From Gillisia sp. (GTDB lineage: Bacteria > Bacteroidota > Bacteroidia > Flavobacteriales > Flavobacteriaceae): DNA of 64,000 nt. Made by a program: the position numbers and the translations under genes. Of this stretch, positions 58,600 through 63,718 are shown piece by piece (position 1 is the stretch's first letter; every line of letters begins with the position of its first letter). The stretch lies in NCBI GenBank assembly GCA_024635655.1, contig JAGXIL010000024.1:1-64000 (forward strand). The letters are read 5' to 3'. Below the pieces are notes generated by a model. That model saw only the letters and a program-made list of their open reading frames with translations. It did not search any database and was not told the origin of the DNA.

Positions 58600-59757
58600 A
58601 TGAAAAATCTGCTTCTCGTTGTTTTCCTCATATTGATCATTGGTTGTAAAGGGGAGGACCGTTTAAAATCTGAAAAAGAACAAGCCACTAAAGACAGTAT
58701 AGCTGGTTTTGAAGTTAATCTTGACAAACTTGTGGACAGCGAAACTATAGAATTAAACCTGGAACAGGCAAACAGGCTGGCCGATTTGCCTTTAAACTGC
58801 ATAAATAAAGAATATCCCAATAAATTGGGCCAAACCCTGGGAAGTGAAAAAGACCTGAACTCTCCTGTTACCCTGCATCCTGCTTTTTACGGCTGTTTTG
58901 ATTGGCATTCATCAGTTCACGCACACTGGTCCCTGGTAAGACTGCTCAAAAAATTCCCGAAACTGGAGAAAGCAAGTGAGATCAATGAGAAGTTGGAAAC
59001 TTCTCTTTCTAAAGAAAATATCGCGAAGGAAATGGAATACTTTAGGCAGGAACACAACCTAGATTACGAGCGTACTTACGGGTGGGCCTGGTTACTGAAG
59101 CTTTCACAGGAACTTCAAACCTGGGATACTGATATGGGAAAAGAACTTTCCTCAAATCTTCAACCCTTGACCGATCTTATTGTTGAACGATATGAGGAGT
59201 TTCTGCCTAAACTTAATTATCCCATAAGAGTAGGGGAGCATACCAATACTGCTTTTGCTTTAAGCTTTGCACACGATTATGCTGTTGCTACAGAAAATGA
59301 AGATTTTGAAGCCATAATAGAAGAAAGAGCCAGAGATTTTTACCTGAAAGATAAAGGTTGTCCTATTGCATGGGAACCCAGCGGATTTGATTTTTTCTCT
59401 CCCTGTCTTGAAGAAATTGATGTGATGAGAAGGGTACTGCCAAAAGCAGCTTTTTCGCTGTGGATGGATAATTTCATGCCAGAGCTTAAAGATCCCGCAT
59501 TTACTCTTGCGGTTGGAGAAGTTTCAGATAGAAAAGACGGGAAACTAGTGCATTTAGATGGGTTAAACTTTAGCAGGGCCAGGATATTCTACGGGCTTGC
59601 CAAACAATATCCCGAAGAATATGCTCATCTACAGGAACTGGCCGACCTGCATATAAATTATTCATTTTCCAATTTGGTGGGAGACAGTTATGAAGGAGGG
59701 CACTGGTTAGGAAGTTTTGCCATTTATGCTCTGGAAGAAGCCAAAAAAGCCAATTGA
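58600..59757 (+). CDS. DUF2891 family lipoprotein
   Basis: The 385-aa protein has a lipoprotein signal (LILIIGCKGED). The mature region is helical, probably an alpha/alpha barrel, with conserved DUF2891 landmarks: HPAFYGCFDWHSSVHAHW, RTYGWAWLLKLSQEL, VGEHTNTAFALSFAHDYA, CPIAWEPSGFDFFSPCLEE and GGHWLGSFAIYAL. The His/Trp/Cys clusters suggest an enzyme, but none is established that I know of. Its stop overlaps the TTG start of the NRAMP-type transporter (attga), so the two are translationally coupled; the pair is 5' of pxpABC. Confidence 0.88.
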   Translation: MKNLLLVVFLILIIGCKGEDRLKSEKEQATKDSIAGFEVNLDKLVDSETIELNLEQANRLADLPLNCINKEYPNKLGQTLGSEKDLNSPVTLHPAFYGCFDWHSSVHAHWSLVRLLKKFPKLEKASEINEKLETSLSKENIAKEMEYFRQEHNLDYERTYGWAWLLKLSQELQTWDTDMGKELSSNLQPLTDLIVERYEEFLPKLNYPIRVGEHTNTAFALSFAHDYAVATENEDFEAIIEERARDFYLKDKGCPIAWEPSGFDFFSPCLEEIDVMRRVLPKAAFSLWMDNFMPELKDPAFTLAVGEVSDRKDGKLVHLDGLNFSRARIFYGLAKQYPEEYAHLQELADLHINYSFSNLVGDSYEGGHWLGSFAIYALEEAKKAN

Positions 59758-60977
59758 GGAGCTGGTTTAAAAATGTAGGACCGGGAGTACTGGTTTCTGC
59801 TGCCTTTATAGGTCCGGGCACTGTGACTGTATGTACGCTTGCCGGTGTGAATTTTCAGTATGCCTTGTTGTGGGCGCTGTTGCTTTCAATTCTGTCCTGT
59901 ATCGTTTTGCAGGAAATGGCTGCAAGACTTGGGATCATAGCCCAAAAAGGTCTAAGTGAATGCATACGTGAGGAAGTGCAAAACCCGGTATTAAAGGTTG
60001 CTGCAGTGGTACTTATTTTTTCTGCTATAGTGGTGGGTAACGCAGCCTATGAAGCAGGAAATATTACAGGTGCAGTACTTGGCATCACTGCCGTTGCGCC
60101 CCCGCTCAATTTGCCGCTGGGAAATTTTTCCTTAAACCTGTGGAGTATTATTATTGGAGCTATAGCCTTTGGTCTTCTGTCGATGGGAAATTATAAGGTT
60201 CTGGAAAGGGTGTTTATAGGTCTTGTAGTTTTAATGAGTATTTCATTTCTCGTCACCGCCTTTGTTGTAAAGCCTGATCTTTCTGAAATAGTAAAAGGTT
60301 TATTCATTCCTACAACAGGGGAAGCAGGTTTGCTCACTGTCATGGCCCTGGTAGGAACTACAGTAGTGCCATATAATCTTTTTCTGCACGCTTCCCTGGT
60401 AGGTGAAAAATGGAATAAACCGGGAGACCTAAAGATCGCCAGGAAAGAACTCACCTTTGCTATTATTCTTGGCGGTATAGTTTCTATGGCCATTGTAATA
60501 TGTGCTGCGGCACCAAATCTTGATCATGTTACTTCTGCAGCAGATCTTGCCCTTGGCCTGGAACCCTTATTCGGGCAATATTCAACCTGGTTTATCGCAG
60601 TTGGTCTTTTGGCAGCCGGCATAACCTCTTCCATTACCGCTCCTTTAGCGGCAGCTTATGTTGTGCGGGGGTGTTTGGGGTGGAAGGATGGATTAAATTC
60701 TTTAAGGTTTAAATCTGTATGGGCCACGATTCTTCTGCTTGGTGTCTTTTTTTCGTCGCTAAAATTGCAGCCTATAGAGATCATAAGGTTTGCACAAATT
60801 GCCAACGGGATCCTTCTGCCCGTCATAGCTATATTCCTGTTTTGGATCGTCAATAAATCTTCTGTTATGGGTAAATACAGGAATACCGGTTATCAAAATA
60901 TTTTAGGAATAGTTATTATCGCTATCTCTATCTTTCTTGGTGCCAAGTCAATTTATACTGTTTGGCAATCCCTGTAA
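59754..60977 (+). CDS. NRAMP-fold transporter with non-canonical metal-site motifs (YcsG-like)
   Basis: The 407-aa protein has 11 transmembrane helices of the SLC11/NRAMP superfamily (TM1 GPGVLVSAAFIGPGTVTVCTLAG; TM6 VGTTVVPYNLFLHASLVGEKW). Canonical metal transporters have DPGN in TM1 and MPHN in TM6. Here these are GPGT and VPYN, so the metal-binding Asp, first Asn and Met are absent. Bacillus subtilis ycsG, an NRAMP relative, lies beside ycsF/kipI/kipA (pxpABC), the same neighbourhood as here. A non-metal solute such as 5-oxoproline is a reasonable inference. It overlaps the DUF2891 stop by 4 bp and starts with TTG. Confidence 0.85.
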   Translation: MRSWFKNVGPGVLVSAAFIGPGTVTVCTLAGVNFQYALLWALLLSILSCIVLQEMAARLGIIAQKGLSECIREEVQNPVLKVAAVVLIFSAIVVGNAAYEAGNITGAVLGITAVAPPLNLPLGNFSLNLWSIIIGAIAFGLLSMGNYKVLERVFIGLVVLMSISFLVTAFVVKPDLSEIVKGLFIPTTGEAGLLTVMALVGTTVVPYNLFLHASLVGEKWNKPGDLKIARKELTFAIILGGIVSMAIVICAAAPNLDHVTSAADLALGLEPLFGQYSTWFIAVGLLAAGITSSITAPLAAAYVVRGCLGWKDGLNSLRFKSVWATILLLGVFFSSLKLQPIEIIRFAQIANGILLPVIAIFLFWIVNKSSVMGKYRNTGYQNILGIVIIAISIFLGAKSIYTVWQSL

Positions 60978-61409
60978 ATCTCCGGTAATGCTGCAGATCT
61001 TTATCCTTACCTCCAAATAAGGCACTTCCTTTCTTAAAAAACCTTATACTCAACGGAATAGTATTTTCACACTCAACTTATCTATATGCCAAATTTTTCA
61101 TACATTCCTGGGATTAATAGCCCGAGGCTTGCTTTACTATTTTCATTTTTTGGATTTGCAATTTTAATTCCTTGTAGGCTTGCCCCGTCATTTCTTATTT
61201 TTTCGAACTTACAATTTGAATTGTAGAATTCTCCAGCCTCGTAGCCATGCCTCACAATTTTATCTTCTTTATAATTTGGAATTTGGAATTTTATTTTTGG
61301 AATTTGATTTTTGGAATTTTCAAACCTAGTGGACTCGCCCCCAATAATTTTTATTTATAATCCTTGTATCTTGAACCTATTTTCAACATCGAACTTTAAT
61401 TTTTAAGAG
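60978..61409. other. 432-bp gap before pxpA
   Basis: No gene. It is very AT-rich, with the GAATTTG heptad array (61272-61320). There is no clear -7 element directly ahead of pxpA. A weak tgtatcttgaacc at 61366-61378 is the nearest. Confidence 0.5.
61272..61320. repeat. Seven-unit heptad repeat (GAATTTG/ATTTTTG)
   Basis: Units read taatttg, gaatttg, gaatttt, atttttg, gaatttg, atttttg, gaatttt (49 bp) with an unbroken period of seven. It is in the leader region upstream of pxpA. Confidence 0.85.
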
Positions 61410-62150
61410 ATGAAACAAGCACATATTAACTGCGATTTGGGAGAAGGAGGGGAGCGCGATGAAGAATTAATGCCTCTTATTTCTTCCTGTAATATTGCCT
61501 GTGGTGGTCATGCCGGGACAGTGAAAAGTATGCGTGAAACTGTTCATCTGGCTTTGGAGCATAATGTGGAAATGGGAGCACATCCTTCCTATCCCGATAA
61601 GGAGAACTTCGGAAGAAAAACCCTGGATATTACATCTGAAAATTTAAAGCAAAGTCTGGTAGCCCAAATCTTAAGTCTAAAACAAATTGCAGAAGCCGAA
61701 GGAGGAAAACTGAATCATGTGAAGCCTCACGGGGCTCTTTATAATGATGCTGCAAAAGATGAAAAAACAGCTGAAATAGTTATAGATGCCATTCTTGAAT
61801 TCGATCAAAAATTAGCCTTATATGCACCTCAGGATTCTGTGATTTCCCGTTTGGCTGAAGGTAAGATCGAGGTGGTTTTTGAAGCTTTTGCAGATCGAAA
61901 TTATAGGGAAAATTATGAGCTGGTTTCCCGTAAAAAAAGCAATGCTTTGATTACTGAAAAAGAGGCTGTTTTTGAACATCTTTTTTCTATGGTTTCAGAG
62001 CAAAAGATCACCTGTGAAACCGGTACAAAAATCCCCTGCCGCGCTATCACATTTTGCCTTCACAGTGACACTCCAAATGCACCTGAAATAATGAGATTTC
62101 TTGATCAAAAACTGAAGGAAAATAATATGGAAATTTTGCGACATGAATAA
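61410..62150 (+). CDS. pxpA: 5-oxoprolinase subunit A (LamB/YcsF family)
   Basis: The 246-aa protein starts INCDLGEGGERDEELMPLISSCNIACGGHAGT, the LamB/YcsF signature, and includes GAHPSYPDKENFGRK, NHVKPHGALYND and FCLHSDTPNAP. PxpABC is the ATP-dependent prokaryotic 5-oxoprolinase that converts 5-oxoproline (pyroglutamate) to glutamate. Its end overlaps pxpB by 8 bp, so the three genes form one operon. Confidence 0.96.
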   Translation: MKQAHINCDLGEGGERDEELMPLISSCNIACGGHAGTVKSMRETVHLALEHNVEMGAHPSYPDKENFGRKTLDITSENLKQSLVAQILSLKQIAEAEGGKLNHVKPHGALYNDAAKDEKTAEIVIDAILEFDQKLALYAPQDSVISRLAEGKIEVVFEAFADRNYRENYELVSRKKSNALITEKEAVFEHLFSMVSEQKITCETGTKIPCRAITFCLHSDTPNAPEIMRFLDQKLKENNMEILRHE

Positions 62151-62877
62151 TGCATTGCCAAAAATAAGCTTGATGGGGGAGCGGTCAATTCTAATAGAAT
62201 TTGAACCTGATATAGATAAAAATCTGCTCGAAAAGCTACTAAATATTAAAAAATTACTAGAAATAAAATTATTTGAATCAAAGGTTGAGGTAATAAATAC
62301 ATATTCCTCGTTATTAATTATTTACATGTCTAATATAGAGAATGTCTATAGTGCCTTTTCAGCCGTAAATGAGGTGCTGGAGGATGCTAATGTAGTAAAA
62401 AATCACCAACCGGAATTATTTCACATCCCCGTGTGTTACGATCCGGAATTTGGACTTGATCTTTCCGAAATTTCCCTGAACAAAAATCTCAGTTTTAGTC
62501 GAATTATAAATCTTCATACTGCACCGGTTTACACTGTATATTTTCTGGGTTTTTTACCCGGATTTTTATACCTGGGAGGCCTCGATAAAAAGCTTCAGAT
62601 TTCCCGAAAAGAACAGCCTCGATTAGAGGTGCCAAAAGGGTCAGTTGGAATAGGTGAATTCCAAACTGGAATTTATCCCAAAAAGAGTCCCGGCGGGTGG
62701 CAAATTATAGGAAATTCCCCGGTAGTTTTGTTTGACGTAAACTCTGATCCTCCTTGTGAAATTTCAGCAGGAGATAAGGTGAAATTTTTCCCTGTCTCAA
62801 AAAAGGAATTTCAGGAAATTAATGATGCGGTAGGAACAGGAAAATTTCAGCTAAAGAAAGAAAAATATGAAAGCTGA
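62143..62877 (+). CDS. pxpB: 5-oxoprolinase subunit B (KipI family)
   Basis: The 244-aa protein matches the allophanate-hydrolase-subunit-1/KipI family. Motifs include MGERSILIEF, HIPVCYDPEFGLDL, FLGFLPGFLYLGGLD, RLEVPKGSVGIGEFQTGIYP and GGWQIIGNSP. With PxpC it forms the ATP-using part of 5-oxoprolinase. It overlaps pxpA by 8 bp and pxpC by 11 bp. Confidence 0.95.
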   Translation: MNNALPKISLMGERSILIEFEPDIDKNLLEKLLNIKKLLEIKLFESKVEVINTYSSLLIIYMSNIENVYSAFSAVNEVLEDANVVKNHQPELFHIPVCYDPEFGLDLSEISLNKNLSFSRIINLHTAPVYTVYFLGFLPGFLYLGGLDKKLQISRKEQPRLEVPKGSVGIGEFQTGIYPKKSPGGWQIIGNSPVVLFDVNSDPPCEISAGDKVKFFPVSKKEFQEINDAVGTGKFQLKKEKYES

Positions 62878-63718
62878 AATTGAAGTTTTACAACCCGGAT
62901 TATTTTCTACAATTCAGGATGTGGGAAGATTTGGATACATGAAATACGGCGTGCCTGTAAGTGGATCAATGGATACATACTCAGCAAAAATGGTAAACCT
63001 TATTCTACAAAATTCTCCCGATTGTGCGGTAATGGAAGTTACTCAAACCGGTCCGAAATTAAAATTTTCAGCCCCGGTTGAAATTGTAATCTCGGGAGGA
63101 AATCTTTCTCCTAAAGTAAATGAAACTGAAATTAAACATAATACTATTTTCCGGGTTCAGACGGGAGATGTATTGAGCTTCGGAAAAAGGCAATTTGGGT
63201 GCAGGAGTTATTTGGGCATTTCAGGTGGATTTCAAACAGAAAAGATTTTAAACAGCAGGAGTTGGTATGAAGGAATAACTAAGAATTCTCATCTTGTAAA
63301 AGGGATGAAATTGGGGTATCATTCTATAGTAGGTTCTATAAATAATACGTATTCTTCTATTAAACCGGAATCATCTTATATAAGAAATCAGGGAATAGTT
63401 GTTGCCAAAGGACCTGAATTTGAGAAAATGCCGGATACTTTGAAAGAAGAGATCTTTCTTCAGGAGTTTTCAGTTAGTAAAAATTATAACCGAATGGCTA
63501 TTCAACTGGAAGAAAATTTTAAAAATTCTATGGAACCTATTACCACCGGCCCTGTTGTACAGGGGACCGTGCAGCTTACCCCGGGAGGGAAAATCATCAT
63601 TTTAATGAGAGACTGCCAAACCACAGGAGGCTACCCCCGGATTCTGCAAGTTATGGAGCAGGGAATGAATTCCCTTGCTCAAAAATTAAAAGGAGACAGG
63701 ATAAGTTTTCGATTGTAA
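62867..63718 (+). CDS. pxpC: 5-oxoprolinase subunit C (KipA family)
   Basis: The 283-aa protein is of the biotin-dependent carboxyltransferase/KipA type: EVLQPGLFSTIQDVGRFGYMKYGVPVSGSMD at the N-terminus, YLGISGGFQTEKIL in the middle and DCQTTGGYPRILQVM near the end. It completes the PxpABC complex. The last 280 bp of the window after it hold no gene. Confidence 0.95.
   Translation: MKAEIEVLQPGLFSTIQDVGRFGYMKYGVPVSGSMDTYSAKMVNLILQNSPDCAVMEVTQTGPKLKFSAPVEIVISGGNLSPKVNETEIKHNTIFRVQTGDVLSFGKRQFGCRSYLGISGGFQTEKILNSRSWYEGITKNSHLVKGMKLGYHSIVGSINNTYSSIKPESSYIRNQGIVVAKGPEFEKMPDTLKEEIFLQEFSVSKNYNRMAIQLEENFKNSMEPITTGPVVQGTVQLTPGGKIIILMRDCQTTGGYPRILQVMEQGMNSLAQKLKGDRISFRL

Follow-up and report, generated by a model that had tools for sequence, protein, structure and literature searches.

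Why should a transporter that annotation pipelines describe as a carrier of divalent metals stand in one gene cluster with the three subunits of 5-oxoprolinase? The question is raised by a 64,000-nucleotide stretch of a Gillisia sp. contig (hereafter the window), in which genes for a DUF2891 lipoprotein, an NRAMP-superfamily transporter, and PxpA, PxpB and PxpC follow one another on the forward strand. We put at roughly two in three the probability that this locus is an operon for the acquisition and breakdown of 5-oxoproline (pyroglutamate), made of an NRAMP-type importer, PxpABC and DUF2891. The NRAMP-superfamily protein would import 5-oxoproline, or a small pyroglutamyl compound, over the inner membrane via a site between transmembrane helices (TM) 1 and 6, at the positions where the metal ligands have turned into Gly, Thr, Val and Tyr; PxpABC would use ATP to open the ring and yield glutamate; and the DUF2891 lipoprotein, placed outside the cytoplasm here, would be an α/α-barrel enzyme most likely freeing 5-oxoproline from pyroglutamyl conjugates or peptides for the transporter. 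The last step is the least certain one, and we assign pyroglutamyl release to DUF2891 tentatively, at somewhat less than even odds.

Genes of the locus

Genes were checked by a list of open reading frames and by Pfam and NCBIfam. The reading frames and Pfam agree with an earlier note on this DNA, made from the letters alone, in the identity and position of all five genes, so that the gene content of the locus is a direct observation. The DUF2891 gene (58600-59757; 385 amino acids; PF11199, 453 bits) encodes the lipobox LIIGC. The transporter gene (59754-60977; 407 amino acids; PF01566, 293 bits) has a TTG start overlapping the DUF2891 stop (TTGA), and the translational coupling of the two genes, which the earlier note had claimed, is therefore plausible; among adjoining DUF2891/transporter pairs in relatives, 51 of 54 overlap or lie at most 25 nucleotides apart.

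The 5-oxoprolinase genes pxpA (subunit A, LamB/YcsF; 61410-62150; PF03746, 278 bits; NCBIfam NF003814, 258 bits with cut-off 226), pxpB (subunit B; 62143-62877; PF02682, 216 bits; TIGR00370, 177 bits with cut-off 146) and pxpC (subunit C; 62867-63718; PF02626, 213 bits) overlap at their ends. All three subunits are thus encoded in one operon and exceed the Pfam cut-offs; PxpA and PxpB also exceed those of NCBIfam, and the match of PxpC to the NCBIfam equivalog is below its cut-off (148 vs 500). The order DUF2891, transporter, pxpA, pxpB, pxpC recurs across Flavobacteriia. A scan of public genomes supplied 80 DUF2891 loci, the majority from Flavobacteriia; the transporter is found in 51 of the pieces read and pxpA in 50, fractions that are biased estimates because the loci were ranked by similarity to the DUF2891 of the window.

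An NRAMP fold without the metal site

Membership of the transporter in the NRAMP superfamily, with the LeuT fold, is indicated by PF01566, by Foldseek matches to EleNRMT and DraNramp, and by broken helices TM1 and TM6. The AlphaFold2 model (mean predicted local distance difference test score, pLDDT, 84.7) has helix breaks at residues 19-20 of TM1 and 204-205 of TM6. Such breaks are the usual substrate site of the NRAMP/LeuT fold. The motifs placed at them are FIGPGT (residues 18-23, 59805-59822), aligned with the DPGN metal site of canonical NRAMPs, and TTVVPYN (residues 202-208, 60357-60377), aligned with MPHN. The earlier note had read these motifs as a loss of the metal ligands, and the loss is complete in the clade: ligands D, N, M and H are replaced by G, T, V and Y in 83 of 83 GPGT-type proteins, a direct observation, and are kept in all 30 canonical NRAMPs read. 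In the same 83 proteins the Glu of the proton pathway in TM3 (E120 in L003 numbering) is Asn, and according to the alignment the Arg pair of TM9 is not kept either.

The protein therefore shares fold and family with canonical MntH but was rejected as an MntH, since the DPGN/MPH ligands and the TM3 Glu are all replaced; its score with the NCBIfam MntH model, 157.7 bits, is far under the cut-off of 430. The nearest solved folds are EleNRMT (template modelling scores 0.83/0.85, 25% identity) and DraNramp. Like the window protein, EleNRMT and other NRMTs (Mg2+-type relatives of NRAMPs) miss the full canonical site; unlike it, they have APW at TM6 and keep the TM1 Asp (NDAGG) of the DxxG motif by which NRMTs are defined (PMC8806188). 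In the window protein this Asp is replaced by Gly, and the NRMT identity was rejected as well. Following the NRAMPs, Foldseek lists the amino-acid carriers ApcT and AdiC and a CAT homologue. A TM1 break of the GxG type, devoid of acidic residues, would be similar to the TM1 with which amino-acid carriers from this superfamily bind carboxylates. The database label 'Nramp family divalent metal transporter' is probably wrong for genes of the GPGT type.

Canonical MntH was not found in the draft genome that contains the window (82% complete). The other NRAMP-superfamily gene of this genome (G000:C56:114216-115256, L002) is located outside the window and is of a very divergent GVSH/IPLD type (PF01566, 48 bits).

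Linkage to 5-oxoprolinases

We surveyed all listed PF01566 matches in 148 Bacteroidota genomes, read the regions around approximately 90 of them, and aligned the transporters and classed them by TM1/TM6 motif; survey counts cover Bacteroidota, and other phyla are represented by single plasmid records and by papers. Linkage to 5-oxoprolinase was observed directly. Not counting the window, 23 of 29 genes for GPGT/(V)YN transporters have pxpA or HyuAB/OPLAH no more than 6 kb away; five of the other six belong to genomes that have pxpA elsewhere, and one to a genome (G030) with HyuB elsewhere. None of the 46 high-scoring canonical DPGN/MPHN genes is near pxpA by coordinates (30 of them were read, all DPGN/MPH), so that the enrichment over canonical MntH, set in the earlier note as its refutation test, is very strong. 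Members of the NDAGG/APW (EleNRMT-like), DPSG/SPY, GTGS and GVSH classes in the 148 genomes were likewise never near a 5-oxoprolinase. At the genome level, pxpA or HyuB accompanies transporters of the GPGT class and the GPGF class (see below) in 40/40 genomes vs 16/108 (p=2e-23), with 34 of the 40 assigned by motif and 6 by position and score, and in 34/34 when the comparison is limited to genomes where the motif was read (p=6e-19); these p-values overstate independence, as the genomes share ancestry.

Within the GPGT branch, one subclade accompanies pxpABC, and others accompany the unrelated OPLAH/HyuAB proteins: OPLAH in L056 and L176, and HyuA with HyuB in L172, L175, L177 and L178 and on haloarchaeal plasmids (L203, L212). 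OPLAH/HyuAB is an ATP-dependent enzyme non-homologous to PxpABC, yet like PxpABC it adjoins the same transporter clade, and also DUF2891 (L056, L214). It was not found in the genome of the window. Uptake of 5-oxoproline by an NRAMP relative, as proposed in the earlier note, is thus well supported by linkage and ligand loss, and we infer the substrate carried to be 5-oxoproline itself.

Two branches of transporters

The clade structure, too, is directly observed: GPGT transporters form one branch of the tree (Shimodaira-Hasegawa-like approximate likelihood ratio test, SH-aLRT, 96). Relatives from Bacillus badius (L230) and Acinetobacter baumannii (L231), beside pxpA, have GPGF at TM1 and GGY at TM6, and the same class adjoins pxpA in four Bacteroidota genomes read (L190, L191, L193, L194). 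YcsG of Bacillus subtilis and PxpT of Corynebacterium glutamicum were put in this GPGF/GGY branch on three grounds: gene order, their published mutual identity of 50%, and how poorly YcsG matches the window protein (18% identity in structural alignment). Identity of the window transporter to members of the YcsG/PxpT/MumT branch is 22-25%, and to canonical and NRMT proteins 28-30%. Orthology with YcsG/PxpT was rejected on the grounds of 24-25% identity to the B. badius and A. baumannii members and the separate position in the tree, where support for the two branches as sisters is 23. The earlier note had drawn a parallel with B. subtilis ycsG, which holds for the gene context and fails for the transporter branch. 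Judged from sequence, two branches of the NRAMP superfamily are tied to 5-oxoprolinase; both have lost the metal ligands and stand beside 5-oxoprolinase subunits, and they differ in TM1/TM6 motifs and in that Mn2+ import has been reported for YcsG and MumT.

We found no characterised member of the window transporter's branch in the literature. In the other branch, C. glutamicum PxpT (2026) is required for growth on 5-oxoproline; the deletion was complemented, and the mutant grows normally on glucose (PMC13274462). Failure of B. subtilis ycsG mutants on 5-oxoproline is mentioned in the same paper, as cited from other work. The uptake idea was therefore partly published already, and a new substrate class for the NRAMP fold, as claimed in the earlier note, is not new in principle. 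YcsG has also been renamed MntG as an Mn2+ importer, on the evidence that its overexpression raises cell Mn and that MntR binds the operon promoter, and the effect of ycsG on 5-oxoproline was argued to be possibly polar (PMC10448178). A. baumannii MumT is reported as an Mn2+ transporter that aids Mn accumulation and whose loss lowers fitness under Mn limitation (PMC5050338). The YcsG/PxpT/MumT branch (GPGF/GGY in the members read) lacks every canonical metal ligand, though MumT and YcsG have been published as Mn2+ importers. One relative from it had no match in the PDB sequence set, and no DUF2891 was seen beside its transporters in the loci read.

A gene for a 'putative hydro-lyase' occurs alongside the YcsG-type pxp genes of B. 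badius (L230, 7209-8000) and near a Klebsiella DUF2891 operon (L207, 12830-12996). This family presumably includes D-glutamate cyclase, and its presence may hint at metabolism of D-5-oxoproline.

DUF2891, a companion of several 5-oxoproline systems

The AlphaFold2 model of DUF2891 from the window (pLDDT 84.9) is an α/α-barrel. The only good solved match of DUF2891 is CJ0554 of Campylobacter jejuni (PDB 8ieu/8iev; 38% identity in structural alignment); with 8ieu, the window protein has a Foldseek E-value of 1e-18 (template modelling scores 0.79/0.90) and a profile match of E 8e-101, with conserved blocks kept. Other α/α-barrel enzymes, such as GH76, are far behind. The family has invariant His, Asp and Glu residues, among them H103, E157, H214, D264, H318 and H368. 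No publication on 8ieu/8iev was found in the literature.

In a preliminary test, a cj0552-4 mutant of C. jejuni was no longer able to use 5-oxoproline, an effect that the authors credit to DUF969/979 (PMC12795558). The three genes cj0552-0554 are DUF969, DUF979 and DUF2891, so this operon mutant covers CJ0554 as well. As in the window, DUF2891 is located inside a 5-oxoproline uptake operon; unlike in the window, the transporter is the unrelated DUF969/979. Altogether, no fewer than six arrangements combine DUF2891 with genes for 5-oxoproline: NRAMP with pxpABC; OPLAH with NRAMP; pxpABC alone; DUF969/979; OPLAH with DUF969/979; and pcp with DUF969/979 facing pxpABC. The last of these, DUF969-DUF979-pcp-DUF2891, where pcp is pyroglutamyl-peptidase I, is from Streptomyces; OPLAH-DUF969-DUF979-DUF2891 is an overlapping operon in Sphingomonas; the trio DUF969-DUF979-DUF2891 is seen on Klebsiella, Kosakonia and Niveispirillum plasmids; and in Bacteroidota genome G108 (L056), DUF2891 is beside OPLAH and the transporter. 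DUF969/979 was rejected as a partner of DUF2891 in Bacteroidota, DUF979 being present in 0 of 148 genomes.

Nearly all copies of DUF2891 in Bacteroidota are exported, and the signal peptide is missing from the copies examined in Klebsiella, Kosakonia, Roseomonas and Caballeronia. The existence of both forms favours an enzyme usable on either side of the membrane over a receptor. A strict dependence of DUF2891 on 5-oxoprolinase was rejected, as pxpA and HyuB are both missing from 8 of the 17 Bacteroidota genomes that carry DUF2891. The neighbours of solo DUF2891 genes, in a set partly chosen by eye and without a control set, are often peptidases (M54, M24, M16, M20, M14, M3, S46, tricorn-S41). 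One DUF2891 (L058, 1456-2569) is split over two frames and is probably a decayed copy.

The gene context in unrelated systems and the C. jejuni mutant support a tie of DUF2891 to 5-oxoproline, and this tie is not strict. Both facts would be explained best by a hydrolase acting on blocked peptides or conjugates to set 5-oxoproline free, because removal of the block would pay even in genomes devoid of 5-oxoprolinase; an epimerase is possible.

Weighing the explanations

The transporter might instead import the divalent metal, Mn2+ or Mg2+, that the adjacent 5-oxoprolinase requires, as proposed for MntG (YcsG) and MumT. The NRAMP fold and its annotation are in line with this, as are the effects on Mn reported for both of those proteins. 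The replacement of all four ligands and of the TM3 Glu in 83/83 proteins speaks against metal, as do the TM1 Asp that the Mg2+-type NRMT retains and the failure of the C. glutamicum pxpT deletion on 5-oxoproline and not on glucose, with the reservation that PxpT falls in the other branch. Complete ligand loss, together with a clade that follows two unrelated kinds of 5-oxoprolinase, favours an organic substrate, and we regard metal import as quite unlikely. An organic substrate could be broader than 5-oxoproline, extending to cyclic amides and small organic acids in general (hydantoins, N-carbamoyl compounds, pyroglutamyl dipeptides). One subclade is indeed accompanied by HyuAB-type proteins, from a family that has hydantoinases among its members, and in L203 by a protein of the Asp/Glu racemase family; the subclade of the window, however, pairs with pxpABC, a dedicated 5-oxoprolinase, and the partner in L056 and L176 is a fused OPLAH-type protein. 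The broader range is an unlikely explanation for the window.

As for DUF2891, a racemase or epimerase making D-5-oxoproline usable, rather than a hydrolase, would agree with the α/α-barrel and the invariant His, Asp and Glu, with the occurrence of exported and signal-peptide-less forms beside differing 5-oxoproline transporters, and with the 'putative hydro-lyase' of L207, presumably from the family of D-glutamate cyclase; in L218, moreover, DUF2891 shares an operon with pyroglutamyl-peptidase I, which would make a second pyroglutamyl hydrolase partly redundant. The 8 of 17 genomes that have DUF2891 and no 5-oxoprolinase to consume the product argue the other way, and we hold this reaction to be improbable. 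That DUF2891 is a binding lipoprotein handing 5-oxoproline to the transporter is very unlikely: translational coupling with the transporter would suit such a role, but signal-peptide-less forms occur in DUF969/979 operons, solo exported DUF2891 occurs in genomes without the transporter, and the α/α-barrel is no known fold of periplasmic binding proteins.

Several observations weigh against the assignment of the locus to 5-oxoproline, in addition to the shared ancestry of the surveyed genomes. Support for the GPGT branch is only 45 in a tree built without long rows. The characterised proteins YcsG, PxpT and MumT belong to the other branch, and Mn2+ import is on record for two of them (PMC10448178, PMC5050338). 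Enzymes of the HyuAB family act on hydantoins too, and haloarchaeal L203 includes an Asp/Glu-type racemase; the haloarchaeal substrate may therefore be another cyclic amide. Besides the eight DUF2891 genomes with neither pxpA nor HyuB, co-occurrence of DUF2891 with 5-oxoprolinase at the genome level is not significant (9/17 vs 47/131, p=0.19), and gene context switches often along the DUF2891 tree. The functional tie of DUF2891 to 5-oxoproline suggested in the earlier note is accordingly supported by gene context and by cj0552-4, and not by genome-level co-occurrence.

Local features and variants of the locus

The transporter is upstream of pxpABC, as the earlier note had it, with the correction that 432 bp (60978-61409) separate it from pxpA. 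This gap is a local feature, absent or of few bases in the near relatives L063-L065; in Gillisia and Salegentibacter (L063-L068) the transporter almost abuts pxpA. It contains a dispersed, AT-rich short repeat of the GGAATTTG type, assigned to no strand, with 18 further partial matches genome-wide. Scans for promoters and terminators gave matches no better than shuffled sequence.

As in the window, DUF2891 is downstream of a glycolysis/comM gene block in L070, L114, L116 and L118, and in L070, L114 and L118 neither the transporter nor pxpABC comes after it; this placement may therefore be older than the operon. In L113, L117 and L095, a gene for a protein of 1073-1076 amino acids (a tricorn-like S41 peptidase in L113) separates DUF2891 from the transporter or from pxpA. 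In L050, gamma-glutamyltranspeptidase takes the place of pxpABC downstream of DUF2891 and the transporter, with pxpA about 260 kb away in the same genome.

Implications

For the transporter, the locus adds a new branch to an idea that is in print; DUF2891 is the less known part. It is conceivable, though we would not favour it over the contrary, that a second NRAMP branch, apart from YcsG/PxpT and extending from Bacteroidota to haloarchaea, imports 5-oxoproline or cyclic amides, and that DUF2891 founds a new class of α/α-barrel enzymes freeing or interconverting pyroglutamyl compounds, in partnership with three unrelated 5-oxoproline systems. The finding bears on a conflict in the literature, where the same NRAMP relatives have been called 5-oxoproline importers (PxpT, YcsG) and Mn2+ importers (MntG, MumT). 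DUF2891, whose structure is solved but unexplained, gains a probable place in metabolism and a few candidate substrates.

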